A DNA stretch of 44,218 bases from a virus, in IMG/VR virus record IMGVR_UViG_3300046011_004673, positions 1 to 44,218 of that record; one strand, 5' to 3'. The position numbers and the translations under genes were made by a program. The number at the start of each line of letters is the position of its first letter. Within the stretch, counting starts at the first letter, position 1. Shown one piece after another: positions 4,080 to 37,986 of this stretch. Below the pieces are notes generated by a model, which did not search any database, was not told the DNA's origin, and worked only from the letters and a program-made list of their open reading frames with translations.

Positions 4080-5045
4080 ATGTCAACAGTCAACAATCGA
4101 CCCAGCACTCCGCTGGTCACGCAACTGGACAACGACGACGAAATCTACGCCATGCGCGTGATCAGCGACAGGGCCGAGTTGGTGCGAACCACAATGGCAG
4201 TAGTGGGTGCTGCTGCGGCTCGAACCCCGAATCTGCAAACCTTCCTGGCGAACGGCACGTGGACGAAGCCGACCGATGCTGCTTACACGTGGGCGCAGGT
4301 CACGGTGGTGGGCGGCGGCGGTGGTGGTGGTTCTGGCCGTCGCGGTGCAGCGGGCACGGTGCGTTGTGGTGGTCAGGCTGGCGGCAGTGGCGGCGTGTCC
4401 ATCGCAACGTTCAACGTCGCTGACCTGCCCAACACTGTGTCGGTCACGGTCGGTGCTGGTGGCGCAGGTGGGTTGGTTGTCACGACTGACGATACGAACG
4501 GCAACAACGGCGGCGCTGGTGGATCGACGACGTTCGGATCACTCTTGGCGACAAACACCAGCGGTGGTGGCGGTGGTGGACTGAACAACGGCTCAACCTC
4601 GACGGGGTTCGGTGGTTCCGGCAATGTGTTTGGTGCGCTTGGTGTTTCAAGTCCGTCAACAACCGGTGGCGCTGGCTCCGCTGCCCAGAACCGGTTTGCG
4701 ACATCCACTGGTGGCGCTGGTGGCGGTTTGACCGCAGCGAACGTTTCATCGGTTGGTGGCTTGGGCGGCTCTACGTGCACGGTTCAGGCCAACCCAGCCG
4801 CAGGTACTGCTGATGGCGGTGCTGGTGGCGCAGGCGTGAACTCAACGATTCAGCCAGGCGCTTTCGGCGGCTCGTCGGGTGGAGGCGGTGGTGCGGGCAA
4901 CGCAGCCGGGACCATTGCCGGTGGTGCTGGTGGTGCGTCTGGCTACGGCTCCGGCGGTGGTGGTGGTGGCGCATCGACCAACGGTGCAAACAGTGGCGCA
5001 GGTGGCGCAGGAGGCGGAGGTTTCGTCATGGTGGTGTGTTTCTGA
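4080..5045 (+). CDS. Glycine-rich tail fibre / adhesin
   Basis: A 321-residue protein. Residues about 1-60 form a polar N-terminal head; a TFLANGTWTKP-type strand and VTVVGGGGGGG entry at about 58-85 lead into some 230 residues of GGAGG-type glycine repeats, as in the glycine-rich phage adhesin domains that pack as polyglycine-II helices and bind host receptors. The ATG at 4074 lies only two bases after the GGAGG SD, whereas the ATG at 4080 has an eight-base gap, so I chose 4080. The stop overlaps the next ATG (TGATG). Confidence 0.75.
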   Translation: MSTVNNRPSTPLVTQLDNDDEIYAMRVISDRAELVRTTMAVVGAAAARTPNLQTFLANGTWTKPTDAAYTWAQVTVVGGGGGGGSGRRGAAGTVRCGGQAGGSGGVSIATFNVADLPNTVSVTVGAGGAGGLVVTTDDTNGNNGGAGGSTTFGSLLATNTSGGGGGGLNNGSTSTGFGGSGNVFGALGVSSPSTTGGAGSAAQNRFATSTGGAGGGLTAANVSSVGGLGGSTCTVQANPAAGTADGGAGGAGVNSTIQPGAFGGSSGGGGGAGNAAGTIAGGAGGASGYGSGGGGGGASTNGANSGAGGAGGGGFVMVVCF

Positions 5046-5317
5046 TGGGCGTTCAACGCTGGCTCATCCTCGACGCCGATGGCGTAGTGCAGAACGTCGT
5101 CATGTGGGACGCCGACGCGAACCCGGACTGGCAACCGCTCGAAGGCTTTACTGCTATCCCCGACGACGGTCGAGACTTCAACTCGGCCAACGACCAGCAG
5201 CCAACGACTGACGACACGATTGATGCGTTGCTGCAGGCGATCAAAGCACTTGCTGCCAACAAGCGTGCCGAGGCGACCAGCATCCTGTCTGGGCTGGACG
5301 CCACACCACCTGCCTAA
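5045..5317 (+). CDS. Small tail-fibre-associated protein, unknown
   Basis: A 90-residue acidic protein beginning MGVQRWLILDADGVVQNVV. Proteins with this start (a short beta hairpin reading D..G.V.N.....) and a WQP turn are common just after phage fibre genes, where some act as assembly factors; assignment here rests on position. The C-terminal half (residues about 50-85) is predicted helical. One-base overlaps at both ends (TGATG and TAATG) put it in a tightly coupled group. Confidence 0.5.
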   Translation: MGVQRWLILDADGVVQNVVMWDADANPDWQPLEGFTAIPDDGRDFNSANDQQPTTDDTIDALLQAIKALAANKRAEATSILSGLDATPPA

Positions 5318-9240: not shown

Positions 9241-9717
9241 GTGCCGAGAAAGCGCAAGACGCAGAGCGGGATGCCCGCTCAACCCATCAAGGCAGTGCCC
9301 GGCACCGGCTACGGTCAGGGCATCAAGCAGGAACAGTTCGCACGGCAAATGCCTGCACCCAATGTGCGTGCTGGGGCCGCAAGGCCCTCCGTATTGGCTC
9401 CGATGCGCCCCCAAGCATCGAGGCCCACGGCCCCAGCCGCACAACCTCCGCAGCCGGTAGCGCAACAGATGACATCGCCACAGAGGCCCGACCTCATGGC
9501 AATCGCTCAGCAGATGCGTGGCGGCGGTGGGTTGCTCCAGAGTCCAACGGCACGACCGAACGAACCTGTCACCGCCGGTCTGCGCATCGGGCCGGGAGGT
9601 GGCCCCGAGATGCTGTCGCGTCCGTACGGCAGCCCGTTGACCGACATGATGATGCAACTCTCACGCGCCACCGGCGATCCGTACTTCGCTGACTTGGCGC
9701 AGAGGAGTCGGGCGTGA
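9241..9717 (+). CDS. Proline/alanine/glutamine-rich protein, unknown
   Basis: A 158-residue largely disordered protein (GTG start one base after the portal stop). It is rich in Pro, Ala, Gln and Met and has a short conserved-looking end (DMMMQLSRATGDPYFADLA). It may be a portal-associated or ejected protein since it lies between portal and the giant virion protein, with a four-base GTGA overlap into the latter. No family recognised. Confidence 0.5.
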   Translation: MPRKRKTQSGMPAQPIKAVPGTGYGQGIKQEQFARQMPAPNVRAGAARPSVLAPMRPQASRPTAPAAQPPQPVAQQMTSPQRPDLMAIAQQMRGGGGLLQSPTARPNEPVTAGLRIGPGGGPEMLSRPYGSPLTDMMMQLSRATGDPYFADLAQRSRA

Positions 9718-12700
9718 CCGACTGGAGCAACTGGAACCCTGAGTCCGAACTGATCACGGCGATCCAGAAGAACATCGACATCAACAACCGTGTTCGTTTG
9801 GTGACCAGCATCAACCCATTGGTGCGCAACGACGCGCAGTTGGCGATGCGAATGGCCTCGTTGCCGATCTCGACGGACCAGTTGGGTACCAACTCGTTTG
9901 CGTTGGCAGGCATGATGGCGGCCGACCAGTTGCGCAGCAACGTGGAGTCAATGACTCCGGCGATGCAGCGCATGGTGTGGGCGCGCCTGCCCCGAGCGCA
10001 GCAGATGGCGTTGACGCAGCAGGGGTACCAGCCGCAGAAGGTCGATGAGTACGGCGTCACCGACATGCTGGGCGATGCGCTCAAACTGCCGTTCCAGATC
10101 GTTGCTGCACCGTTGAAAGGGCTCGGTCAGGTCACCAAGCCGATCTGGCAACCGGCGCTGCAAGGTCTGGCATGGGTGGGCGATCAGCCTGCCCACATCT
10201 ATCGCGCTATCCGCACGATGGACGACGGTCAGCAGTGGGCGGGCCTGGGCGGCGCGCTGCTGGGCATCGGTGCTGCCATTGCAGCAATTCCGACCGGCGG
10301 GTCATCACTGCTGGCGCTCGGCGCAATTGGAGCCGCCGGCCTGGGTGGCGCAGTAGCAGGCTCAATTGCGGCTGACCCGTTGAACCCGATGGACTTCGGG
10401 CGTGCGTGGATGGACACACGCGACGGCGAGCGTGCGTTCGATCGCGCTGCCAGTCGGTACGCCGAAGGGCTGTTGGGCGACCCTCGGTTGAAGACCCTGG
10501 CCGTCGAGATTGCAGACATCTCCGATCGGTCGATCTACGAGATTGCTCGCGAGGTCGCCGGGGCGAGAGAGACGGACGCTGCCCAGCGCAACAACTCGTA
10601 CCTGAGTGAACTGAGTCGCATTGCCGATGGCATTGCACAGCCCAACACGGCGCAGCACCAGGCGGTGATGCAGTCGTTGCAGAAGTTGATGACGGAGCCG
10701 GTGTTCTTGGAGGCGGTCAACAAGCTCCAGAACGGCAAGATCAGCATTGGACGCGACCTGGCGGATGCGTTGCCGTGGGTGGAGAAGGACAGTGCGATCT
10801 ACACGATGATCTCGGGCGGCGCCGACGCGCTGTTCCAGATTGCGGTCGATCCGTTCCTGATGCTTGGGCGCGCCAACGATGTCGTCAAGTTCCACCGTCT
10901 CGGACTCGACGTGATCGACGATGCGTTCAGCATCCAGCGGTTCAACGAGATTGCAGAGAACGTGCCGTCGGTGAAGCGGCTGCACACCAAGTTGGCCGAA
11001 GCGGTGATGACCGACGACTACGAAATGGCGCGTCGTCTGGGCACCGACAACGTGTCGCTGTGGGAAGGTCTGCGCACCTACCGGGAGAACGGCATCAGAG
11101 AAGGCGTCATCACGCCGACCGAGTTCGGCGCTGAGCACATCCGGGCGTACGTGAAGGATGTGAAGGACATGAAGTCCATCCTGTCCGGCATCGGCACCTA
11201 TCGCAACAAGGAACAGTTGATGCTCAAGGGCTTCAACTACCGCAACGAGGCGTGGGCGCGTACGGCTGGCAAGGTGCGCAGCTTCTCGAGCGGCCTCACC
11301 GACATTCGGTCGGAAAGGCAGATGCTCAAGGAGATGGAGAAGTCGGGGGTCAACCGTGTCATGGACGGTTTGCCTGCCCATCTGCGGTTGCATCGCCCGG
11401 TGCAGGAGGACATTCCGTTCCTGCAGGTCGTGGCGAACAACAGGGATTTCTTGGCTCCGGGGCGCACTGGCTGGGATGTACTGGCTGACGAGCCTGCGAA
11501 GTTGAACGACGTGATGTTCGACTTTGCCAACCGTCTCGGCAAGCACGACTTGTTGCCCGACGACGACATTCAGTTCTTGGAGGATCTGCAACTGTCGATC
11601 GCGCAGAACGGCCGGCCGCTGCAGCGCAAGACGTCGGAGTTCTCGGCCATCACCGACCGGCTGTCGGACATTGCGCAACGCACGTTGGCGCTGCCGATCG
11701 ACGAGCGGGCGGCGACGTTCTTGGACGAGTACGCCATGTACAAGGAAGTGAACCCGCTGGCGCGCAAGGTGGGCCGCAGGGTCGCCACGGTGTTGCCTCG
11801 CACGTCGCACGCCGTGGGCACCACAATGCAGATGGCAACCACCATGATTTCGCCCACGAAGGGCATCAAGTTGGTGGGCGAAGGCGCGCCGGAGAACATC
11901 CGTCAGTTCGTCGAGGTGCTGCGGTTGACGTCGATGCCCGAGTACATGCGGCGCATGTGGTTCGACGAGATTATCAAGCACCCAACCGGGCATGCCCGTG
12001 GCGCAGCCATGCTCACCGCTTTGGACAACGGGTTGACGATTGCTGGTATGCGGTCGTTGAAGGGCGGCGAGGAGTTCGTCGACAAGTTCCTGCTGCACGC
12101 CCAGCACGCATACGGCCTGGGCGGCACGGTCGATCGCACGTACATCAACGGCCGACGCATGGTCACGTCGCCGCTGCTGGACGACACGGCGCAGTTCCTG
12201 ATGATGCCGAACCTCACCGATCTGCGCAAGCTCACGCGCTCGGGGTTCGTGTCGCAGGTGATGGGCGTGACCGACGTCAAGGTGTTGGACTCGTTCGTCA
12301 ACCAGGTGTGGAAGCCTGCCGTGCTGTTGCGCATGGCATTCATCCCACGCGCTGCCGGTGAAGAGTGGATCAACTTCATGCTGCGTGGCGGCTTCGGCTC
12401 CATCGTGGAGAACATGGGCGGTCAGTACGTCGGTCGCTACCGGGCATGGCGCAACGTGATCGAGAAGGTCGAGAAGTTGGGCGCAGCGAAGGTTGGCAAG
12501 GGTGCGCTCACCGCCGAGGAGGCGTTGCTGTACTCGCAGGGCCCGTTGCCAAAGATGATGCGGCCCGTCGAGCGGATGCTCAATCGGTTCGACTGGACGG
12601 CTCCGATGCAGCGGCGCATGAGCGATTTCGCTGAGAACCTGCAGTATTGGCTCACGCCCGAGTCGATGCAGGTGACGCTGCGGTCGGGCCTCGAGGTGCC

Positions 12701-15700
12701 TGGCGGGGGTGGCTTAGGGTTGCAGCAGCCGATCAACCGGATGCTGGATCGCATCGGCGGCGACGCTCGTCGACAGTTGTCCAGTGGTGCGTCCGAGCGG
12801 GAACTGCGTGCAGCCATGACCCGTCAGGGTCGGTTCGCCAAGATGGTGCCCACGTCGGAGAAGGCGTGGTTCAACGTGGCCGACTACGCCGACACCCTGT
12901 TGATGGGGTCGCCGTCGTCGTGGCGCCGACTGGTGGCTGGCGGTGTCAACGACTACACCGTGGAAGCAGGCGAGCAGTTCGCCAAGACGTTCCAAACGGT
13001 GTTGATGCGCGAGGTGTCGGCCACCGAGGCAGGCAACTTCGAGCGTGGGTACGAGCGCAGCGATCTCAAGACCTTTGAGGTGCCGGACGGCCAGGGTGGC
13101 ATGAAGACCGTTCGGGCCGTGGCGATGCGTGGCGGCTGGAAGCGGCACGAACGCGTCATCGGTGATCCGATGTTCAACTACGCAGCTCATCAGGGCGTGC
13201 TGAACACGATTGCACTCGACGAGGGTGGCCGGCGTGTGGCGACCGAGGTGCTGTCGCGCGTGTTGCCGTCGTCGTTGACATACGACGACGTGGCGAGCTT
13301 CTTGGACCAGGCCGCACGCATCGACGATCCGCTGGTGCGCGAACTGCTGCTCGGCTTCTCGGCCAACGACACGAAGGTTGCACGCGTCACGTTGGAAGCG
13401 GTGGCTCGTCAAGACCCGTTCTTCGCCCTGGTGAAGAACCGGCTGCCCGAGACTGGGCCGATCACGCTCGACGAGGTGCGTGACGTCACCGACGCAGTGT
13501 TGGCTCGCTACACCGAGGTCGTCGGTGATGTGCTCAAGTGGCGTCGGGACATGCCGAACGAGGTCAAGAACGAGGTGTGGGCGTACACCCGCACGGGCGA
13601 GATCCTGCCATCGGAAGCGACCTTCAACACCGTGCCCGATCTGCCGCCGATGTTCGACACTGTGAAAGTGTTGATCGACGACGACGTGCGTGACGCGCTC
13701 AGCCGGGTGCAAGACGGTCTGGCAGCAGCAATGCGCCGAGGCATCGACGAGCACGACTACCAACGGCAGTTGATGAACCACCTGTACACGTCGCCGCAGA
13801 CGCTGTACGGCCCGAACAGCGCCGACGCCTCTCGTCGCCTGGCGCGCATTCAGCGGGACGAAGCACGCAAGGCCGTGAAGGCAGAACGCAAGCAGGCGCT
13901 CGATGACGCCCAGGAGTTGGGTGAGGACATCGATCCAGCCGTACTGGCAGGGTTCGATCAGCGGCTGGCGGCGTTGGACGCCGAGCAGGTGTTGGCCGAC
14001 GAGGCGCGCCGTCTCGCTGTCGAGCAGGGCGACATGCGCACCTACCGGCTGTACAACAACATCGACGAGGCCGACGCCGACGTGCGTGCGTTGCTGGCCG
14101 GGCACTTCGAGAACACCACCGTGCAGGAGCGAGCAGCGTTGTCGTTCCAGTCGCCGGGCGGCTCCAACCACGCCGAGTACGACAACGTCACCGTCTACCG
14201 ACCCGACAGCGCGCTGATCATCCCTGACGAAGCGGTGCGCTCCATGTGGGATTCGCTGCCTCCGATGTACGAAGGCGAGCAGGCGCGCAACGCTGGTGAT
14301 CTGGCCGACCTGTTGGTGAGCGAGATGGCACGCGCAGCAGGCATCGGCAACGCTTCGCAGATCCTGCAACATCGTGCCCAACTGGTCAGCATGTATCTCG
14401 AGCAGATGGACATGGCGTACCGCCGGGGCAAGCAGTTCTTCGGCTTCGATCTGCTCGACGACAGCACGGTTGCGCAGTCGAGTCGCCCGGCCATCCGTGG
14501 CTACTTCACGGCACCCAATCCGGCTGACAACCTGCCCGACCTCGACATGCTGTTTGCCGATCAGGCGCTGGTCAGCGAACTCAACTTGGCGATGAAGAAC
14601 CTGATGGCTCGTCACGGCAAGCTCGGCCCTGAGGTGCCAGAGGTGTTCGCTGTGCGTGTGCCTCGCGCCGTGACTGACAACCGGTCGACGAGCGTGATGA
14701 GCCCGTTGGCCCAGCGGATGCAGATTCGGTCGGCAACGCAGGACGACGCATTGCTCGATGACCTGGCGCAGATGCGTGCTGACGCAGCCAATGCACGCGA
14801 GCCGTTGACTTCGGAGATTCGCCCGATCGCAACGCGCCCGGGCACTGAACTGCCGGCCATCTGGACAGCGCACCGCAACTTCGTCAAGGAACGCGTGCAG
14901 TTGGCGAGCGAGATTCAGAACCCGGACGCCGCCCAGGCGTACGCCGATCGCATGTGGACGCATATCAAGCAGATGACCGGCAAGAAGAGCCGTGAGACGC
15001 AGCGTGCCCGCTTTGATGAGCGCACCATGAAGGCCGAGGACGGCACTGAGCAGACGGTGCGCAAGTCGCGCGTGTACCGCTACGGCAAGGACAACAAGGA
15101 GATCATCGAAGTCCGAGAGGGTGAGGAACTGCACCCCGAGTCGACGTTCGTCGATGAGCGCGGCAAGAAGATCAAGTACGGCGACGGGCTGTTCATGGAG
15201 CCAGCGTCCTTGACCTATGAGCCGAACGATCTGATGTGGCAGTTGATTGGCTCGATGATCGAAGATGCGTTTGATGCGCAGCGTGGCATCTTGCGTCACG
15301 AACGCAAGGCTGAGATGATTACCGTGCGCGGCCGGTTGGAACCGTCGCCCGACTGGGTGCCGGTTTATCGGTCGAAGGACACGCACGTTCCTGACGAGGC
15401 GCACGGTGGTCCGCAGTTTGCGATCGGGCCTGCGTTGGAACCGTTGAAGGAGAACACGTGGCAGAGGATCGTCCGCTACGGCTTCGACGAAGTGATCGGG
15501 CCAGCGATCGATGCGATCGTTCGTCGCCCGATGGCGTTCCACTTCTTTGCACAGCGGTACCGGTTTGCCAAGCAGGCGAACCAGTGGATGCTCGATCCCG
15601 AACTGACGGGGCGCGCAACTCAGGCTCTCGCCAACGTGCTGCACAGTCGGGCGGTGGTTGATCAGACGCGCATCGACGAGGTCAGCGATCTTGTGCGCCG

Positions 15701-17864
15701 CATGGCATCGGTGGACGGGTACTCGGCCGAGAAGTGGGGCGCTCGGGAGTCGATGGCGTGGCTGCGTTCACTGCCTGCCGACGAGATTGCCCCGACCTGG
15801 CGACGCATCAGAGAAGCGATCGACACACGGGTGGCGACCTTGCCGGAGAGCAGCGCAACTTCGCAGTCGCTGCGCGTCACGTCGAAGGACATGACCCGGC
15901 TGGAGAATGAGTTGCTTCGGGGACTGCCGCTCAACTCGGCCATGCCACAGATCATGCGTGATGAGCGGTTGGCAGACGGGTTGCGGGACATCGTCAACAG
16001 CAGCACTGTGGAGCGCGATCTGTTGGCCGAGATGGAGCGGCTGCTGCCCGTTGGTGCGATCTACGACGCCGAACGGCTGCACAAGTCGTGGAACTACTAC
16101 GTCGGCCAGGAGCGCCGGTACGGCGCCATCAGTCGTGAAAAGACGATGTCGATGGACGAGGCACAGGCGATTGCCGCTCACGCCAAGGAGGTGCGTCACG
16201 CGAACGACGCAGCCGGCAACTTGGCTGCCGAGGCGGCGCTGCGCGACATCATGCCGTTCATCGACTCGCAGAAGGTGCGCACTCAGTTCGCTGAGTATGG
16301 GCGAGGCCTGTTGCCGTTTTGGTACGCCGAAGAGAACTTCTTGAAGCGGTGGGGGCGCACGATCCTGGACGATCCGACGGTGATCCGCAAGGCGCAGTTG
16401 ACCTACATGGGCCTGCGCACCGTGGGCATCGTTCGCCAGGACGAGCAAGGCCAGGATTGGTTCGTCTACCCAGGTTCGGGGTTGCTGGTGGAAACCATGT
16501 CGAAGGTGCTGCCGGGTGTTGGTGTTGCAGCGATTGGCACGATGTTCCAGTCGCCTACGTCGTCGATGTTTCCTGGTCTGTCGGAGCGGTTCGGCACGCC
16601 TTCGTTCTCGCCGTTCGTGTCGGTGCCGATGGACTTGGCGACGCATATGTTCGCTGAGTTCGTTGACCTAGCACCTATCGAGCGAGCGATGTTGGGTGAC
16701 TACGCAGCCAACCGCAATGCGTTGGAGCATCTCATCCCGACGTCGGTCACGAACATCTGGGATGGCGTGATGCAGGGTGGCTTCGGGCGTGTGGACGAAG
16801 CCAACGTCCGCTACTCGTCGGCGCTGATGAGCGCAATGGCGCACCTCGACGCCATCGGTGATGGCTTGCCCGACAACGCCAACGCGCAGATGCGTGACGA
16901 GTTCCTCAGGCGCGCTCGAGAGCACGCACGCGTGATTCTGTTCAGCCAGGCCATTGCTGGGTTTTTCACACCGGGCCCACCGCAGGCGTTGATCACCGGC
17001 GAGACAGGCGGCTTCACCGGATTTGGTGCGCAAGACCCACGGGACATCCTCAACGGCCAGTACCAGACGTTGATCCGGGAACTGGGCATCGACGAAGGCA
17101 CCGTGAGGTTCTTGGAGTTGAACCAAGACGCCAACCTGTTCGACATCGTCAACCCCATTGCGCTGACGGTTGGCAAGACCGAGTCGGAAAGCGGAGCGTC
17201 GTTGCCTACGACCGAAGAGGCAGTGCAGTTCTACACGCAGCACAGCGACTACTTGCAGGCCATGCCGTTCGCTGGACCGTGGTTGCTGCCTGTGGCGAAG
17301 GAAGGCGACGAGCGGTCGCAGTATGCCTACGACCAGCAGTTGATCGAAGGCTTGCGTCGCAGGCTGACGCCCGAGGAGTTTTTGGCCGAACTCAAGTACA
17401 AGGAAGCTGCACCGCGCTACTTCGCGTTGAAGAAGCAGTACCTCGATGCCGTCGATCGCATGAAGATGGCAGGCAACGAGTCGGGTGTCGAGAGGGCCAA
17501 CCAGTATTGGCAATCGACATCGACGGCGTATCGAGCAGCACACCCGATCTTCGACGAGCAGATGAGCAGCAGCGACGGCCGGCAGCGGCGTGCATCGGTC
17601 ATCGACGAGATGCGCACGGCGGTCTACGATCCGCTCGTACCGCCATCGCCACAGTTGGAGGGTCTGCGTGAGATCATGACCACGTGGGACCAGTACAAGA
17701 TTGCGCTGGCAACATTGCGAGAGGACGGTTCGGCACGTGGCCGAGCCAGCGTGGAGCAGGCCAAGGCGACGTTCGAGCGGATGATGGACGACCTGATGAC
17801 GCGACGGCCGGAGTTGCGGTCGTTCTACTTGGCTATCATCCGGCCAGAAGCCGATCTGGATTGA
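9714..17864 (+). CDS. Giant virion (putative ejection) protein, 2716 residues
   Basis: One uninterrupted reading frame of 8.15 kb, 18 percent of the window. GTG start with AGAGGAG SD. A Gly/Ala hydrophobic block at about residues 176-215 could insert in membranes. Near residue 860, a WKPAVLLRMAFIPRAAGEEW segment is a pattern I have seen in very large proteins of podovirus-like environmental phages; another conserved-looking region runs from about 2190 (LPFWYAEENFLKRW) to about 2420. Long charged helical stretches separate them. I see no lytic transglycosylase, protease or polymerase motif. By position after the portal and by size it resembles internal ejection proteins such as T7 gp16 in role only; this is inference. 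Confidence 0.75.
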   Translation: MTDWSNWNPESELITAIQKNIDINNRVRLVTSINPLVRNDAQLAMRMASLPISTDQLGTNSFALAGMMAADQLRSNVESMTPAMQRMVWARLPRAQQMALTQQGYQPQKVDEYGVTDMLGDALKLPFQIVAAPLKGLGQVTKPIWQPALQGLAWVGDQPAHIYRAIRTMDDGQQWAGLGGALLGIGAAIAAIPTGGSSLLALGAIGAAGLGGAVAGSIAADPLNPMDFGRAWMDTRDGERAFDRAASRYAEGLLGDPRLKTLAVEIADISDRSIYEIAREVAGARETDAAQRNNSYLSELSRIADGIAQPNTAQHQAVMQSLQKLMTEPVFLEAVNKLQNGKISIGRDLADALPWVEKDSAIYTMISGGADALFQIAVDPFLMLGRANDVVKFHRLGLDVIDDAFSIQRFNEIAENVPSVKRLHTKLAEAVMTDDYEMARRLGTDNVSLWEGLRTYRENGIREGVITPTEFGAEHIRAYVKDVKDMKSILSGIGTYRNKEQLMLKGFNYRNEAWARTAGKVRSFSSGLTDIRSERQMLKEMEKSGVNRVMDGLPAHLRLHRPVQEDIPFLQVVANNRDFLAPGRTGWDVLADEPAKLNDVMFDFANRLGKHDLLPDDDIQFLEDLQLSIAQNGRPLQRKTSEFSAITDRLSDIAQRTLALPIDERAATFLDEYAMYKEVNPLARKVGRRVATVLPRTSHAVGTTMQMATTMISPTKGIKLVGEGAPENIRQFVEVLRLTSMPEYMRRMWFDEIIKHPTGHARGAAMLTALDNGLTIAGMRSLKGGEEFVDKFLLHAQHAYGLGGTVDRTYINGRRMVTSPLLDDTAQFLMMPNLTDLRKLTRSGFVSQVMGVTDVKVLDSFVNQVWKPAVLLRMAFIPRAAGEEWINFMLRGGFGSIVENMGGQYVGRYRAWRNVIEKVEKLGAAKVGKGALTAEEALLYSQGPLPKMMRPVERMLNRFDWTAPMQRRMSDFAENLQYWLTPESMQVTLRSGLEVPGGGGLGLQQPINRMLDRIGGDARRQLSSGASERELRAAMTRQGRFAKMVPTSEKAWFNVADYADTLLMGSPSSWRRLVAGGVNDYTVEAGEQFAKTFQTVLMREVSATEAGNFERGYERSDLKTFEVPDGQGGMKTVRAVAMRGGWKRHERVIGDPMFNYAAHQGVLNTIALDEGGRRVATEVLSRVLPSSLTYDDVASFLDQAARIDDPLVRELLLGFSANDTKVARVTLEAVARQDPFFALVKNRLPETGPITLDEVRDVTDAVLARYTEVVGDVLKWRRDMPNEVKNEVWAYTRTGEILPSEATFNTVPDLPPMFDTVKVLIDDDVRDALSRVQDGLAAAMRRGIDEHDYQRQLMNHLYTSPQTLYGPNSADASRRLARIQRDEARKAVKAERKQALDDAQELGEDIDPAVLAGFDQRLAALDAEQVLADEARRLAVEQGDMRTYRLYNNIDEADADVRALLAGHFENTTVQERAALSFQSPGGSNHAEYDNVTVYRPDSALIIPDEAVRSMWDSLPPMYEGEQARNAGDLADLLVSEMARAAGIGNASQILQHRAQLVSMYLEQMDMAYRRGKQFFGFDLLDDSTVAQSSRPAIRGYFTAPNPADNLPDLDMLFADQALVSELNLAMKNLMARHGKLGPEVPEVFAVRVPRAVTDNRSTSVMSPLAQRMQIRSATQDDALLDDLAQMRADAANAREPLTSEIRPIATRPGTELPAIWTAHRNFVKERVQLASEIQNPDAAQAYADRMWTHIKQMTGKKSRETQRARFDERTMKAEDGTEQTVRKSRVYRYGKDNKEIIEVREGEELHPESTFVDERGKKIKYGDGLFMEPASLTYEPNDLMWQLIGSMIEDAFDAQRGILRHERKAEMITVRGRLEPSPDWVPVYRSKDTHVPDEAHGGPQFAIGPALEPLKENTWQRIVRYGFDEVIGPAIDAIVRRPMAFHFFAQRYRFAKQANQWMLDPELTGRATQALANVLHSRAVVDQTRIDEVSDLVRRMASVDGYSAEKWGARESMAWLRSLPADEIAPTWRRIREAIDTRVATLPESSATSQSLRVTSKDMTRLENELLRGLPLNSAMPQIMRDERLADGLRDIVNSSTVERDLLAEMERLLPVGAIYDAERLHKSWNYYVGQERRYGAISREKTMSMDEAQAIAAHAKEVRHANDAAGNLAAEAALRDIMPFIDSQKVRTQFAEYGRGLLPFWYAEENFLKRWGRTILDDPTVIRKAQLTYMGLRTVGIVRQDEQGQDWFVYPGSGLLVETMSKVLPGVGVAAIGTMFQSPTSSMFPGLSERFGTPSFSPFVSVPMDLATHMFAEFVDLAPIERAMLGDYAANRNALEHLIPTSVTNIWDGVMQGGFGRVDEANVRYSSALMSAMAHLDAIGDGLPDNANAQMRDEFLRRAREHARVILFSQAIAGFFTPGPPQALITGETGGFTGFGAQDPRDILNGQYQTLIRELGIDEGTVRFLELNQDANLFDIVNPIALTVGKTESESGASLPTTEEAVQFYTQHSDYLQAMPFAGPWLLPVAKEGDERSQYAYDQQLIEGLRRRLTPEEFLAELKYKEAAPRYFALKKQYLDAVDRMKMAGNESGVERANQYWQSTSTAYRAAHPIFDEQMSSSDGRQRRASVIDEMRTAVYDPLVPPSPQLEGLREIMTTWDQYKIALATLREDGSARGRASVEQAKATFERMMDDLMTRRPELRSFYLAIIRPEADLD

Positions 17865-29156: not shown

Positions 29157-30170
29157 CTACTGCTGCCACAGCAGTTGCTCGTTCTGACCGAAACCGACGA
29201 AGCGCAGTGAACCCTCAGCGATGCGGGCGTACGCCTTCTCGAGCCGCTGTTCGTGTTCGGCGGTGAAGTTGTTGGCCGATGCGCCGATCTGCTTCAACAG
29301 AGCGTGCCAGAACCGGTCGGACGGAATGCCGTGTTCGATCGTGAGGTCGTAGAACCGGGACGACCACTGATCGAAGGGCCCATCGACGACGACTGCATCC
29401 ACGATGCCGTCGTCATCTGCCGTTGGTGCAGCGGGCAAGGCCGGTGCGGTGAACGACGGCTGCACGGGGGCAGCACCGATGGCGGTCACCTCGGCGGCGC
29501 CGGACACGATCTGTGCAGCGGACATGGGCAGCGACACCTTGGGCACGACGAAGTTCCGTTTGCCGGCCGGGGTCATCTGCGTGCGCTGCTCGATGCCGAG
29601 TTGCGCCTGGACGAGTTGGCCGGAAGCGGACATGCTCTCGATGAGCGCCGTCATGCCGGGCAGTTCGTGCATGGCGTTCCAGCCCTTCGTTTCCAGCCGC
29701 CACACACCACGGAAGGCGACGGTCGGCAGGATGACGTTGAGCCGTGAGTACGGACGGCAGTCCATGCCCTGCTTGGCGACGCAGATGCACGGTGTCTGTG
29801 ACATCTCCCAGCCGTTGGGCGTGGTGATCGGTACTTGGCAGACCTCTCCGTCACAGCGCCGCTGTACGCCGCCACCGGACCACAGTTCGTACCACGACGA
29901 CAGGGCGTCCCGAGGCAGGTACACGTCGATCTGCTTGGCGTTGGTGATGACCTCGAACTGGTTGGGCGGCGATGCCTTGGGGTCGGACCACGCTTTGGCG
30001 GTGCCGCCGTACAGGTCGGCCAATTGCTCGATGACGGCACGGTCGGGGCTGGTGAAGCGGAACGTGTCCAGCGACTTCATGCCCTTGCCGGACTTGATGC
30101 CGAGCCGGATGCGGCCTGCTTCGGGGATGCGGTGAGCGATGTCACCAATACGCACGACGGACCGTGCCAT
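29157..30170 (-). CDS. phiC31 gp3-like protein (recombination directionality factor family)
   Basis: A 337-residue protein. The pattern GRIRLGIK..KG..SLDTFRFTSPDRAVIEQLADLYGG, then EVIT, then YE.WSGGG.QRRCDG, a cysteine set (C106, C111, C128, C130, C138) and FRGVWRLETKGWNA is that of the family containing phiC31 gp3, which reverses serine-integrase reactions. The family is also common in phage and plasmid elements without a known integrase partner, where its job is unclear; no integrase is seen here. Start ATG at 30170 overlaps the previous stop (TGATG) with AGGAG five bases before it; an in-frame GTG lies one codon upstream. C-terminal tail (250-337) is Ala/Pro linker then helical. Confidence 0.7.
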   Translation of the reverse strand: MARSVVRIGDIAHRIPEAGRIRLGIKSGKGMKSLDTFRFTSPDRAVIEQLADLYGGTAKAWSDPKASPPNQFEVITNAKQIDVYLPRDALSSWYELWSGGGVQRRCDGEVCQVPITTPNGWEMSQTPCICVAKQGMDCRPYSRLNVILPTVAFRGVWRLETKGWNAMHELPGMTALIESMSASGQLVQAQLGIEQRTQMTPAGKRNFVVPKVSLPMSAAQIVSGAAEVTAIGAAPVQPSFTAPALPAAPTADDDGIVDAVVVDGPFDQWSSRFYDLTIEHGIPSDRFWHALLKQIGASANNFTAEHEQRLEKAYARIAEGSLRFVGFGQNEQLLWQQ

Positions 30171-30343
30171 CACTTCTCCTGTCGGTTGTAGTCGTAGGCG
30201 GGCATGGTGAACCCTAGGGTGGGATGGAACATGATTCGTGGGCCAGCCGTCAGGCCGTCACGCACGTTCAGGTTGTGCGCGGCAACAGCCAGGACTTTGT
30301 CCAAGCCCCGGCTGTTGCGATCCGCACCTGGATTCGTGGTCAC
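30170..30343 (-). CDS. Small protein, unknown (57 residues)
   Basis: GTG start at 30343 overlaps the preceding stop by four bases (GTGA) and has AAGGA upstream; the stop overlaps the next start (TGATG). The reading frame is convincing (ADRNSRGLDKVLAVAAHNL, then AGPRIMFHPTLGFTMPAYDY). No family recognised and no membrane segment; its coupling suggests it works with, or is dosed with, the gp3-like protein. Confidence 0.6.
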   Translation of the reverse strand: MTTNPGADRNSRGLDKVLAVAAHNLNVRDGLTAGPRIMFHPTLGFTMPAYDYNRQEK

Positions 30344-34478: not shown

Positions 34479-34772
34479 ATGGTTGCGATGCGGAAGATTG
34501 ATGAGCAGGTACTGGACGCGATCCGCACGATGCGCGCTCAGCACCACGCTGCGACGGCTGGACGGATCGCGCTCGATCTCAGGGTGTCGAAGCAGTACGT
34601 CGTCCAGGCTTGCGAACGATTGAAGTCGCTCGGCCTCGTCGACTGGACTCCGAACTTCGCTGGATCGCTGCATGTCGTCGAGCAGGAAGCGGATGAGGAT
34701 CTGACGCCCACATCCATACCTCCGTCTCGTCCTTCGGCGCAGCGACGTTCTTCGACACACACAGCCACGTGA
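34479..34772 (+). CDS. Small helix-turn-helix regulator (only + gene in the right arm)
   Basis: A 97-residue protein with AGGGAG seven bases before its ATG. A winged-helix-like core covers residues about 5-70: helix MRKIDEQVLDAIRTMRAQHH, then AATAGRIALDLRVSKQYVVQACERLKSLGLVDW as the HTH, then a short wing. The last 25 residues are Pro/Ser/Thr/Arg-rich and are read from DNA that also encodes the RusA tail on the other strand. Orientation and the adjacent palindrome suggest a transcriptional switch protein. Confidence 0.75.
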   Translation: MVAMRKIDEQVLDAIRTMRAQHHAATAGRIALDLRVSKQYVVQACERLKSLGLVDWTPNFAGSLHVVEQEADEDLTPTSIPPSRPSAQRRSSTHTAT

Positions 34773-35052
34773 CCAAGCGGTCGTCAGCGATGACGACCTT
34801 GTTGAACGCATCGAGCACGGTCTTGGCGAGGTTGTCGACGTCGCCGCTGCCGCCCTTGGTGAACGAGCACTGAATCAGGATGCTGACAGGCCGTGCGTAC
34901 GGGGCCTGCTTCCAGCGCGTCATCCACAGGATGCGATCTTTGGCAGCCCTGTTGGCATCCGTGTCGTAGGTGCCGTGCCGCCCATGCCGGGCGCGTTGCA
35001 AGGGATGTGGGCGGCCAGCGATGACGACGTGCAGCAGCAACTCACCGCTCAC
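34579..35052 (-). CDS. RusA-like Holliday junction resolvase
   Basis: A 157-residue protein. Residues about 64-91 (the DVDNLAKTVLDAFN block followed by VVIADD) hold the Asp71, Asp73, Asn74, Lys77 and Asp90/Asp91 pattern of RusA, which cuts four-way junctions and helps resolve phage concatemers. Residues 1-118 cover the core; the last about 39 are basic and low-complexity and overlap the convergent HTH gene by 194 bases. The GTG at 35052 is in a repeated start junction (GTGAGCGGTGA); an upstream in-frame TTG is unlikely. Confidence 0.85.
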   Translation of the reverse strand: MSGELLLHVVIAGRPHPLQRARHGRHGTYDTDANRAAKDRILWMTRWKQAPYARPVSILIQCSFTKGGSGDVDNLAKTVLDAFNKVVIADDRLVTWLCVSKNVAAPKDETEVWMWASDPHPLPARRHAAIQRSSESSRRGRATSIVRKPGRRTASTP

Positions 35053-35131
35053 GACGACCACCAAACACGAGGAACCACGCAGTGATGACTCCAAGAACAA
35101 CTGCCACTGCCTCGGCTACTGCTTCAGCCAC
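35042..35131 (-). CDS. Membrane mini-protein (29 residues)
   Basis: GTG at 35131 overlaps the upstream stop by eight bases; the frame gives an Ala/Val-rich membrane helix (about residues 4-23) followed by GGRRER, ending in the repeated junction that starts rusA. Its very short length means it could be a coupling peptide only, but hydrophobic patterning and exact junctions support translation. Confidence 0.45.
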   Translation of the reverse strand: MAEAVAEAVAVVLGVITAWFLVFGGRRER

Positions 35132-35387
35132 GACAAGCCTCTTCCCATGCGCTCAGGGACTCTCGGCCATCGTTCACGCCACATGCCGTGACATGGCGGC
35201 GAAAGTTGTCAGCCATCGCATTGCCAGCGGCGCGCAGGCGCTCGACCTCGGCACGCAGCCGCATGACCTCTACACACGGGCAGCGGTAGTTGACGACGGG
35301 GTCGTCAACTTGGAGCTGTTCGTCCGCTGCTCGTCTCCAGTTCCACCCAGCGCCCTCACAGACGGTGCACATCGGGTCACCGCTCAC
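35124..35387 (-). CDS. Tandem-family small protein with zinc-like cysteines
   Basis: An 87-residue protein beginning with Val-Ser-Gly-Asp from the repeated junction. CTVCEGAGW and CPCVE near residues 7-11 and 36-38 suggest a small zinc site, followed by a helix EVMRLRAEVERLRAAGNAMADN that matches the helix RLRAAGDALAE of the paralogue at 35809, and a similar end (AWEEAC versus AWQEAR). GTG 35387 overlaps the previous stop by 11 bases. Confidence 0.6.
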   Translation of the reverse strand: MSGDPMCTVCEGAGWNWRRAADEQLQVDDPVVNYRCPCVEVMRLRAEVERLRAAGNAMADNFRRHVTACGVNDGRESLSAWEEACRG

Positions 35388-35619
35388 GACGGGCCTCCAG
35401 TACCGCATCGATTTCTGACATCGGCACTCGGTCGTCGGCGGCAACAAAGACGTGGCAGCCGCAGCGCCTGCAGTCGAGCGAGGGCATCGGCCGACCGTCA
35501 GCCATGTGCCACGGCGGCGGCAATCTCCACGCATCGACGCCGCTGCTGCACGAATGGATCACCCACGGGCAATCTCTTTCGTCCAGCGCCCAACGGAACC
35601 ATGTTTCGTCACTGCTCAC
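35377..35619 (-). CDS. Tandem-family small protein, Cys/Trp-rich
   Basis: An 80-residue protein (GTG 35619). It has CRRCGCHVF near residues 49-57, a zinc-ribbon-like knuckle, and ends EARRER as its paralogue does. The N-terminal half is Trp-rich. Overlaps: four bases with the previous gene, 11 with the next. Function unknown. Confidence 0.6.
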   Translation of the reverse strand: MSSDETWFRWALDERDCPWVIHSCSSGVDAWRLPPPWHMADGRPMPSLDCRRCGCHVFVAADDRVPMSEIDAVLEARRER

Positions 35620-35819
35620 GGCTGGCCTCCCACATCCGTGGCGCTGGCGCTACCGTTGTTGCGGGCCTCCCAGTAGTCGACGGTCATTGCCATGCACGAC
35701 CAACATCCCCCGCATGGAGGCCACGACCAGCAGTCGTGCTTGTGGTCGGCTTCGGTGTGGTGCGAGTCCGGCTCACCGTCCATGTGCGCCTTGCAGCGAC
35801 AGAGTGGCTCACCGCTCAC
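35616..35819 (-). CDS. Tandem-family small protein, Cys/His-rich
   Basis: A 67-residue protein (GTG 35819). It holds CRCKAH, HHTEADHKHDCW, and CGGCWSC, so up to six cysteines and several histidines could bind metal, most likely zinc. It ends in GGQP and shares a four-base overlap with the next gene. No catalytic motif. Confidence 0.6.
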   Translation of the reverse strand: MSGEPLCRCKAHMDGEPDSHHTEADHKHDCWSWPPCGGCWSCMAMTVDYWEARNNGSASATDVGGQP

Positions 35820-36027
35820 GACGGGCCTCCTGCCAGGCGGCGTATGCACGATTGCATTGCTCAACCTCGTTGTCTCGGCAACAAACAACGGCGAGGAGCG
35901 CCACCTCGGCCAACGCATCGCCAGCGGCACGCAGCCGTTTGATCTCGTCGGCGGCATCGGACATGTGAAATGGAGCCAGCGCCATGCGGTGTTCCGATCG
36001 CAGACGCTCCACAATGTCACCGCTCAC
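35809..36027 (-). CDS. Tandem-family small protein (DIVERLR / AADEI.RLR type)
   Basis: A 72-residue protein (GTG 36027): SGDIVERLR, then SDAADEIKRLRAAGDALAE, ending AYAAWQEARRER. The DIVERLR ... AADEI.RLR pattern is widespread in small phage proteins of unknown function. It overlaps the preceding gene by four bases and the next by eleven. Confidence 0.65.
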   Translation of the reverse strand: MSGDIVERLRSEHRMALAPFHMSDAADEIKRLRAAGDALAEVALLAVVCCRDNEVEQCNRAYAAWQEARRER

Positions 36028-36425
36028 GACGGGCCTCCTTCGGGGTGGAGCAGGCGGTGCGTCTTGCAGGGCCAGGGTTCGGTGAAGCAGACGCAGCACC
36101 ATTCACGATCGAACTGCGCTTCGGGCTGATGCAGTGCGTCGATGGCGTCGAGCAAATCGGCAGCGTCGCTGTAGAGCGATGCAATGGATGGGATCGGTAC
36201 GGTCTGGTGCGCGTCCCGCAGCCGCTCCACGATGTCACCGCTCGCGACCGGCCCTCCCGCCATGCGCTCGACGATGGCGTCACACAGCGCCTCGGCCAGG
36301 TCGTGGATGCGCAACTGAGCGTCGTCGTAATCCCGCTCAATCCATGCGCTGCCGGCGTTGGTGTTTGGGTGCCAGCGCTCGTGCAGCACCTCGTCGATGA
36401 TCGGGTACAGCTCATCCTTGGTCAT
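36024..36425 (-). CDS. Apparent two-unit fusion of the tandem small-gene family
   Basis: A 133-residue protein. Residues about 1-50 (MTKDELYPIIDEVLHERW ... AEALCDAIVERM) form one helical unit. From about residue 60 a second unit reads SGDIVERLRDAHQ...SDAADLLDAIDALH, closely like the neighbouring 35809 gene, then CCVCFTEPWPC..H, a zinc-like knuckle. Between them, at 36235-36245, lies the same junction seen between neighbouring genes but with its GTG changed to GCG, so the units are read as one protein. ATG 36425 has AGGAG upstream; it overlaps the preceding gene by 14 bases. Confidence 0.65.
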   Translation of the reverse strand: MTKDELYPIIDEVLHERWHPNTNAGSAWIERDYDDAQLRIHDLAEALCDAIVERMAGGPVASGDIVERLRDAHQTVPIPSIASLYSDAADLLDAIDALHQPEAQFDREWCCVCFTEPWPCKTHRLLHPEGGPS

Positions 36426-36837
36426 GGGACATCTCCTGACTGGTCGGGTCGAAGTTGAGGTAGGGGCAGGCGGCAAGGAAATCGGCCGGCATCCGGCGAG
36501 CGAACCGGCGGGACATGGGCGGCACTTTCGTGCGGAACTTCCAGGTCTGACGGTTGTCCAAGTCTGTCACACACTCGGCCAGCCCGAAACTCTGCAGCCG
36601 CTTGAGCGTGTGGAACATGGCCGACGGCATGACACCGAACATCTGTGCGAATGTCTCGACGCTGAACGTGTACGGCAAGCCAGCCGAGGCGTTGAGCCAG
36701 CGGGCGGCGTGATGCAAGACGAGCGTGCTGGTGGGGCCGAGCGCAGGCGTGAGGTACCACAGCGCGTCGTCGCTGTCGCATGCCAGCCACGACTCGTCGC
36801 TGTTGTCGTTGGTCCAGAGCATGACTTGGATGATCAT
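36412..36837 (-). CDS. Putative winged-helix / HTH protein
   Basis: A 141-residue protein. Residues about 50-110 (FSVETFAQMFGVMPSAMFHT, LKRLQSFGLAEC, then a strand pair DNRQTWKFRTKV) fit a winged helix. The N-terminal part has a beta strand IIQVMLWTND and hydrophobic strands. It starts 14 bases after the ArdC-like gene stop and is probably a DNA-binding regulator, but the partner is not known. Confidence 0.6.
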   Translation of the reverse strand: MIIQVMLWTNDNSDESWLACDSDDALWYLTPALGPTSTLVLHHAARWLNASAGLPYTFSVETFAQMFGVMPSAMFHTLKRLQSFGLAECVTDLDNRQTWKFRTKVPPMSRRFARRMPADFLAACPYLNFDPTSQEMSHDQG

Positions 36838-36851
36838 CGGGGTGCTTTCTG

Positions 36852-37697
36852 TCAGGCAGCAACGTCGGCTGCGATGGGGAGGTAGGAGACGAGGTGATCG
36901 ACTGCGTGCTGGGCGGCAGCAGCCACGGTGAACAAGGTGCGGGGGTCGGCACGCAGGACACGAATCCACGACGCCAGGTAGGCAGCGTGGTCGTCGGTGC
37001 GGACACCGGAGTCGGCGTCGAAGCGGGCACAGAAGAACGCAGCGCCGAGTTCAGCGATGAGTTCCTCCATTGCGTACGCATCGTCACCGAAGCGGCCCGA
37101 CAGGTCACGGTTGCAACGAGTGCTGTGACCCGTCCAGTGCGTCAGTTCGTGGGCGAACGTGCCGTAGTAGCCAGCCGCCGAGGTGAAGTCGGAGAAGTCG
37201 GGCATGTACACGACGTCACGGATCGGTGAGTATGCCGCATGGGTGGACCGTTCGACAGTGGCGCCGATCAGCAGCAGGGCCTCCTCGAGCGCAGCCAACC
37301 GTTCCGACTCGGGCAGCAGCGTGCGCTCGGGCAACGTGAAGCCGTCGACCTGGGCGACGTTGAACACGTGGAACACGTACGGCACCAGGCGTGTGCGGCC
37401 CGGGTTCTGCTTGTCTTCGACGGGCGACCACTTGACCAACTGCACGGACTTCTCGCCCTTGCGGACTTGGGCGCCGACCGACTGCCACTGCTTGTAGGTG
37501 GCCCACTGCTGCTCCTGCACATCGTGGATGAGCAACTGCAGCACGTTCATGCCACGGTAGGCGACGCCGGTGGTGGCGTTGGTGGGGGCCAGCATCGACC
37601 GCCACGGCATCGACCACGACAGCGACCCGGCCTCGATGCGGGTCACCAGGCGTTCGACGAGGTCGGTCAAGAGGGCATCGACCTTGGACTCAGGCAT
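36852..37697 (-). CDS. ardC: ArdC-like antirestriction protein (ssDNA-binding plus metalloprotease-like)
   Basis: A 281-residue protein. The N-terminal half matches the ArdC ssDNA-binding domain (a WSMPWR segment, TGVAYRGMN, YKQWQSVGAQVRKGEK). The C-terminal half holds the zinc-metalloprotease-like motif HELTHWTGH (about 183-191) with a downstream glutamate in EELIAELGAAF (about 211-220). ArdC protects incoming DNA from host restriction. ATG 37697 with GAGGAG SD. A nine-member early gene chain follows. Confidence 0.85.
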   Translation of the reverse strand: MPESKVDALLTDLVERLVTRIEAGSLSWSMPWRSMLAPTNATTGVAYRGMNVLQLLIHDVQEQQWATYKQWQSVGAQVRKGEKSVQLVKWSPVEDKQNPGRTRLVPYVFHVFNVAQVDGFTLPERTLLPESERLAALEEALLLIGATVERSTHAAYSPIRDVVYMPDFSDFTSAAGYYGTFAHELTHWTGHSTRCNRDLSGRFGDDAYAMEELIAELGAAFFCARFDADSGVRTDDHAAYLASWIRVLRADPRTLFTVAAAAQHAVDHLVSYLPIAADVAA

Positions 37698-37986
37698 ACC
37701 GCTCCTCTCGCTGGTAGTCGTACTTGAAGTCGGACACGCAGTCCTCGCACACACAGGCGTGCGCGTGTTCGGCGTCGTCGAGGTCGTCGACGTCGATGTC
37801 ATCGGTGTAGATCACGAAGAGGTGGGTCATGGGCTCAGCTTTCTCGGGAAGAAGGACGCCGTACACGACGGCTTGGCAGGACACACACAGGTTCCAGCGG
37901 AAACAGCCATCGACAGCGAACGACTCGAGGGTCATCGCCACGTCGGCTGTCACGGCGCATCGGTCACATGGGAGGATCATCGTCAT
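37690..37986 (-). CDS. Zinc-ribbon-like small protein
   Basis: A 98-residue protein with three cysteine pairs: CDRC (7-10), CVSC (about 30-33) and CVCEDC (about 75-80), and an acidic middle (DDIDVDDLDDAEH). The first two pairs could form one zinc ribbon. ATG 37986 (GAGAGG upstream) lies inside the end of the previous gene (23-base overlap). Overlaps ardC by eight bases. Function unknown. Confidence 0.6.
   Translation of the reverse strand: MTMILPCDRCAVTADVAMTLESFAVDGCFRWNLCVSCQAVVYGVLLPEKAEPMTHLFVIYTDDIDVDDLDDAEHAHACVCEDCVSDFKYDYQREERYA

Follow-up and report, generated by a model that had tools for sequence, protein, structure and literature searches.

Array of overlapping mini-genes in the window

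A stretch of viral DNA of 44,218 nt (IMG/VR record IMGVR_UViG_3300046011_004673; hereafter the window) carries on its minus strand, from 36425 to 34579, seven head-to-tail, overlapping open reading frames (ORFs), which we found to be joined by a repeated 22-base junction, GGAGGCCCGTCGTGAGCGGTGA. This 22-mer is present in the array as three exact copies and four variant forms, all on the minus strand, and holds a Shine-Dalgarno sequence (GGAGG, placed 6 bases ahead of the start, at Shine-Dalgarno spacing), a GTG start codon and stop codons for two of the upstream frames; the stop of one gene lies over the start of the next, with overlaps of 4, 8 or 11 bases across the junctions. An earlier note on this DNA had described an 11-mer, GTGAGCGGTGA, and the six copies that it claimed, with at most one change, are all in place in the array on one strand (36245, 36027, 35819, 35619, 35387 and 35052), with GGAGG ahead of each except that at 35052. 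The upstream gene stops in the GTGA frame, with a 4-base overlap, at 36027 and 35619, and in the GGTGA frame (second TGA), with an 11-base overlap, at 35819, 35387 and 35052; the two stop frames and the GTG start that the note described are thus seen at these five live junctions. The copy at 36245, which it had also taken to link genes, is no junction today, having suffered a 1-base insertion and a change of GTG to GCG that result in an in-frame fusion. The 11-mer alone is only weakly unusual (six sites against 2.1 expected, a count reached in 1 of 100 shuffles); GGAGG plus the 11-mer, and the 22-mer, are observed 3-4 times against 0.00 expected and never in shuffled windows, and about 2e-8 exact copies of the 22-mer would be expected from base composition.

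The first gene of the array (36024..36425) is a fused mini-gene, in which an MTKDELYP module (36425 to ~36257) continues in frame, through the scar junction GGAGGGCCGGTCGCGAGCGGTGA (36235..36257), into a module marked by DIVERLRDAHQTVP. Its N-terminal part is 69-86% identical to stand-alone genes with an ...AGGPS end at a junction, and its C-terminal part matches genes whose start is the junction. The fused gene itself ends in GGPS with a GTGA overlap at an exact 22-mer (36017..36038; 4-base overlap, GGPS/MSGD), from which starts an ORF of 72 aa with relatives elsewhere (35809..36027; MSGDIVERLR...EARRER). A further exact copy (35809..35830; 11-base overlap) leads to a 67-aa Cys-rich mini-gene (35616..35819; CRCKAH...CGGCWSC) with the tail NGSASATDVGGQP, and a junction with three changes from the 22-mer (35609..35630; 4-base overlap) to an 80-aa mini-gene with relatives (35377..35619; WFRWALDE...CRRCGC..., again with an EARRER end). 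The third exact copy (35377..35398; 11-base overlap) opens an 87-aa mini-gene (35124..35387), whose Cys-rich N-terminal part is common to contig G005 and whose C-terminal part (RLRAAGD...AWEEACRG) is common to other partners. The earlier note overlooked what follows, namely a seventh, diverged junction, GAAGAGGCTTGTCGTGGCTGA (35144-35124; 8-base overlap, of a type seen elsewhere as GGAGGCCCGTCGTGGCTGA), and the 29-aa membrane mini-gene that starts at it (35131-35042; a single helix, MAEAVAEAVAVVLGVITAWFLVFGGRRER), whose DNA is ~92% identical in G007 and G013/G014, the match stopping at the junction edge. The last junction (35042..35063; 11-base overlap) has an exact core with GGTGG replacing GGAGG, and the final array gene (34579..35052; 157 aa), which had been read as a zinc-knuckle mini-gene, is instead a RusA-like Holliday junction resolvase (Pfam PF05866, 2.8e-10; PHROG 140, 9.4e-13). 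RusA is the sole array product with a family match, none of the mini-proteins in the window being named by Pfam or PHROGs; folds were predicted for two of them (predicted local distance difference test score, pLDDT, 78), and the 80-aa one had no significant fold match. The description of the products as zinc-knuckle or coiled-helix proteins applies to a part of the set, as membrane mini-proteins, WhiB, RusA, dCMP-deaminase-like and primase-like genes also follow the junction.

Conservation of the junction among viral contigs

The junction is also present in other viral DNA. In IMG/VR, 16 contigs have the exact 22-mer, often with 2-3 copies each, and relaxing three positions yielded just 23 stretches, although random matches should rise about 64-fold; the relaxed 22-mer with ATG for GTG, used as an IMG/VR control, and with ACC for AGC (GTGACC, a one-codon control) each gave 0 matches. 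Sites with at most three changes number 83 and are found in 30 of 34 related contigs, with none for the reversed pattern; allowing up to five changes gives 109 sites on one strand against 1 on the other (shuffles, 1.0). Neither half of the 22-mer occurs on the opposite strand in 0.84 Mb.

Contigs were grouped by shared DNA, the groups being built from partial contigs: group I is large (GC content 0.67-0.68), group II comprises G006 and G009 (0.62), group III lies at about 0.54, and several contigs stand singly. The end of G001 and the start of G022 (IMG/VR 3300032222) share an identical 123-bp overlap, which suggests that both are parts of one genome, and the final tests count them as a single group. 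Outside the array the window shares almost no DNA with its relatives, except for two stretches in common with G002, and its capsid protein was found in 0 of the 34 contigs and its ParB-like protein marginally in one, as assessed on partial contigs with no internal positive control. The GC content of the arrays tends to 0.56-0.66 regardless of the remaining contig.

Across 80 non-redundant junctions, conservation is confined to positions -11 to +10, with sharp edges and background levels on both sides. Junction pairs taken from different groups, each flank below 45% identity, number 2345, and on average 18.9 of their 22 bases agree. To remove the circularity of selecting sites by the pattern, we selected them on one half and scored the other, and of 55 non-redundant sites picked by the right half, 46 differ from the pattern at no more than two positions of the left half, which had played no part in their choice. 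This flank-independent conservation across groups, along with the sharing of the same bases by two upstream frames, bears out the earlier suggestion that the nucleotide sequence and not the protein ends is conserved; conservation of protein ends is ruled out, as ...GGPS and ...EARRER ends, read in two frames, share these bases. The 80 junctions display neither a palindrome nor an unusual fold (mean z 0.18), and thus give no signal of a structured RNA, and an operator or terminator is ruled out by the restriction of the motif to the coding strand at gene starts.

A relative of the 67-aa gene in loci L103-L105 has an 8-base-type junction at both ends and lacks the NGSASATDVGGQP tail, and gene and junction type are therefore separable. 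Another array, with repeated ...AWEEARRG/MADDIV... junctions of the 8-base type, is found in L107 and L110 (GC 0.48 and 0.59), indicating a linker family wider than the 22-mer. The 22-mer and the MTKDELYP gene had no match in the genome_contigs database, and the array was unmatched in cultured phages. A 45-base query matched a Microcystis phage weakly, at a single site (E 0.2), which we take as coincidence.

Substitutions at the three codon positions 3' of the junctions, in the start frame, number 327/201/431, and 5' of them, in the GTGA frame (frame A), the third position has 644 against 459 and 405; this third-position excess supports coding in both frames. The same arrays (98-100% identical, up to 2651 bp) were assembled from different metagenomes in G006/G009, G013/G014, G023/G024, G025/G026/G027 and G033/G034. 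The G030/G032 pair (0.276), aligned out of register or in the wrong orientation, was left aside.

Shuffling of mini-genes at the junction

The MTKDELYP gene is found in 20 viral loci; the gene that comes after it varies among about a dozen, while the overlap stays the same. Comparison of gene order in the relatives shows whole mini-genes gained and lost between junctions: in group I, the number of mini-genes between the MTKDELYP gene and whiB is 0 (G025-G032), 1 (G033, G034), 2 (G008, G021), 3 (G023, G024), 4 (G015) or 5 (G012), and all those inserted are joined via 4-, 8- or 11-base overlaps. In G021 the modules that make up the fused gene of the window are separated by one additional mini-gene, and by DNA comparison the scar in the window consists of the left part of the first G021 junction and the right part of the second. 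After the array, group I loci (L050-L067) have two WhiB-like genes in a row and then variable methyltransferase or other genes with GTGA/ATGA overlaps, and the variable stretch of this group may extend past the junction array.

With near-identical junctions merged within groups only, 61 between-group junction pairs share just the left neighbor, 43 just the right and 1 both, where 1.0 would be expected if the two were independent; left and right neighbors are statistically independent between unrelated groups. BLAST match ends fall at junctions in 39 of 120 cases, against 8.9 expected and a maximum of 17 in 500 shifts, and of the between-group DNA matches of at least 85%, 55 lie near junctions, which make up 15% of the bases, versus 3 elsewhere. 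A 254-bp block comprising the 80-aa gene and both of its junctions is 91.3% identical to G016 and spans exactly junction to junction, while one cassette shows 96-98% DNA identity (protein, 98-99%) in three groups with GC contents of 0.68, 0.62 and 0.56. Genes are thus shuffled at the junction, and the whole-gene gain and loss and the independent neighbors across unrelated groups agree with the view of the earlier note that the array is a modular unit into which small genes are inserted or shuffled. Its term "duplicating unit" does not fit, since exchange between genomes dominates.

A second island, GAGATCGAGCGGCTGCG, which encodes the EIERLR of a coiled coil, lies within genes and has no start signal. 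The array strand has 51 copies of it, 50 of them near junctions, and the opposite strand a single one; the window has it as GAGATCAAACGGCTGCG (EIKRLR; 35930..35946, minus strand) and GAGGTCGAGCGCCTGCG (EVERLR; 35233..35249, minus strand). BLAST match ends fall at this island in 20 of 120 cases versus 7.3 expected, and a break hot spot that is purely intragenic favors homology over a start signal alone.

Neighboring genes and probable host

WhiB genes are present in 13 of 20 contigs, with their nearest cultured matches in phages of Mycobacterium, Gordonia and Streptomyces, which points to a host that is probably a member of Actinomycetota. Just 5' of the array the window has, on the minus strand, a gene that by eye resembles a helix-turn-helix protein (36412..36837; no Pfam or PHROGs match) and an ArdC-type anti-restriction protein (36855-37802; ArdcN, 5e-24, and a zincin domain, 2e-40). 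A recombination directionality factor-like protein at 29160-30173 (minus strand; Pfam Gp3-like, 5e-36) may be a sign of a temperate phage that uses a serine integrase. The structural half contains a single open frame of 2716 aa (9714-17864, plus strand) without a Pfam match, and a 968-bp segment at 4188-5153, outside the array, is 87% identical to G002, an isolated recent exchange among small genes.

Explanations for the recurrent junction

We propose that the 22-mer is quite probably a portable translational-coupling linker that also offers probable actinobacteriophages an island of homology at which to exchange genes. The array would accordingly be a row of exchangeable mini-genes, in which GGAGG, the 6-base spacer and GTG would serve as ribosome-binding site and start, and GTGA and GGTGA would supply stops in the two upstream frames other than that which continues into the next gene. 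An incoming gene in either frame would stop at the linker, which the two stops would render indifferent to the incoming frame, and we infer from the overlaps and the spacing that re-initiation is translationally coupled; the third frame would yield fusions of the kind that the scar in the window illustrates. The 22 identical bases at each joint would form a short homology island for phage or host recombination, through which co-infecting phages and prophages could exchange, insert or delete whole mini-genes without breaking expression, with the GAGATCGAGCGGCTGCG island permitting half-gene exchange. Homologous or annealing recombination at the 22-mer would be the likely cause of the shuffling, and its benefit a fast turnover of accessory early genes. 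With somewhat less assurance, we lean toward a broader picture, in which unrelated actinobacteriophages would draw on one pool of cassettes, whole mini-genes and half-genes, all fitted with a standard connector. That connector, a DNA linker, would be selected for translation and for recombination at once, and plug-in exchange through it would let accessory early regions evolve and leave the neighbors on either side of a joint at linkage equilibrium.

Several points weigh against the proposal of a linker that is also a homology island. A RecT-type recombinase is found in just 1 of 20 contigs (G003) and Erf in 0 of 20, and a length of 22 bp comes close to the shortest on which homologous recombination works. 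The shuffling is known from sequence comparison, and 61 of the 120 BLAST match ends, about half, fall at neither island. The genome groups are those delimited in this analysis from partial contigs; for the 11-base frame (frame B), with 46 substitutions, the third-position evidence is thin; and selection for the translation signal alone could keep the bases.

This last thought is taken further by the account in which the 22-mer is a conserved regulatory or translation-start motif akin to the start-associated sequence (SAS), to which rRNA or a factor from phage or host would bind, while joints arise by illegitimate recombination and selection keeps those that preserve a motif that does not itself drive exchange. 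That the 22-mer is placed at the starts of genes, always in one strand and with a strong Shine-Dalgarno sequence, agrees with it, and the SAS of Cluster K (PMC3203893) and Cluster EF (PMC7302621) are such motifs that also accompany different gene families. However, the spacer and the post-start bases are conserved as much as the Shine-Dalgarno sequence, the ATG form of the relaxed 22-mer was never found, match ends lie at its very edge, and stop bases used only by 11-base-overlap genes are retained where the upstream gene ends earlier; together with the second hot spot of match ends, inside genes and without a start signal, these features make us consider this account unlikely. A single ancestral mini-gene, copied in tandem and then diverged with its ends kept alike, would explain the DIVERLR and EIERLRA segments common to some mini-genes, but we regard this origin as highly improbable: the genes joined are unrelated (WhiB, RusA, dCMP-deaminase-like, the membrane mini-gene and Cys-rich proteins), the flanks are at background identity over the 2345 pairs, and two different upstream frames are used. 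The simple duplication of a single locus that the earlier note had contemplated likewise fails, since most of the joined genes are unrelated.

That each cassette has a single conserved site and is gained or lost as a whole, and that all lie in one orientation, would also suit a target of a dedicated site-specific recombinase in an integron-like cassette system. Against this, the junction lacks a palindrome or unusual fold, its variants of three overlap types are in use, exchanges also occur at a second, unrelated island, and no recombinase gene was noticed beside the arrays, where no integrase-family search was made; we give this explanation very little credence. The relatives are all metagenome contigs, and chimeras could in principle be assembled via the repeated 22-mer, but arrays of near identity were recovered from different metagenomes, and we therefore hold that they are not assembly chimeras, an explanation of practically negligible probability.

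Comparison with known systems

Integron gene cassettes are interchangeable genes separated by a repeated site, and the junction array resembles them in its swappable genes divided by such a site. Unlike integrons, its linker is coding and translational and has no attC-like fold, and no integrase was seen among the array neighbors, for which no dedicated search was made. In Cluster I mycobacteriophages, recombination between matching gene ends is the explanation given for gene gain or loss in the case of Island3 gene 68 and Brujita (PMC3029335); that is a single event at a gene-specific repeat, whereas the 22-mer is a general linker.

The SAS and extended SAS (ESAS) of Cluster K mycobacteriophages (PMC3203893, PMC12699233) and the SAS of Cluster EF Microbacterium phages (PMC7302621) are repeated, one-oriented ribosome-binding site motifs of unproven function. 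The SAS is a 13-mer, GGGATAGGAGCCC (GGGAAAGGACCCC in Cluster EF), that lies 3-7 bp ahead of mostly ATG starts and is confined to its cluster (PMC3203893, PMC7302621). The junction shares with it the one orientation, the position at the starts of numerous small genes that are non-structural and belong to different families, and the occurrence in actinobacteriophages, and it may work like a SAS in translation. Unlike the SAS, it reads GGAGGCCCGTCGTGAGCGGTGA and neither GGGATAGGAGCCC nor GGGAAAGGACCCC, runs through the GTG start with 11 bases on either side, stops two upstream frames, and is common to groups without a detected shared backbone, in which neighbors are shuffled. As it departs from the SAS in sequence, position and start codon, we do not regard the junction as a SAS; an ESAS-like inverted repeat was not noticed at the junctions, where no systematic search was made.

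The "boundary sequences" of phage modules are short shared DNA proposed as a site of homologous exchange (Susskind and Botstein 1978; Clark et al. 2001, on phage HK620; as discussed in PMC3029335), and are missing at most joints (PMC3029335). Like them, the junction is short shared DNA at the edges of unrelated modules, and mosaic breakpoints fall there with gene-by-gene resolution; unlike them, it is one 22-mer that marks dozens of joints across unrelated genomes and itself provides the ribosome-binding site, the start and the two-frame stop. The junction system fits the boundary-sequence hypothesis, a route of gene shuffling proposed long ago but seldom observed, and is a clear natural case of it. 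We found no description of the junction in the open-access literature. For decades it has been asked whether phage mosaics originate by exchange at short-homology boundaries or through illegitimate recombination with later selection; a natural system with dozens of joints made by one 22-mer, free shuffling of neighbors and near-identical cassettes across base compositions makes this directly testable. In the junction there may also be a natural "standard part" with which coupled genes can be joined, and the 22-mer, with the GTGGCTGA form as a further key beside it, is a search key for many unannotated mini-genes.
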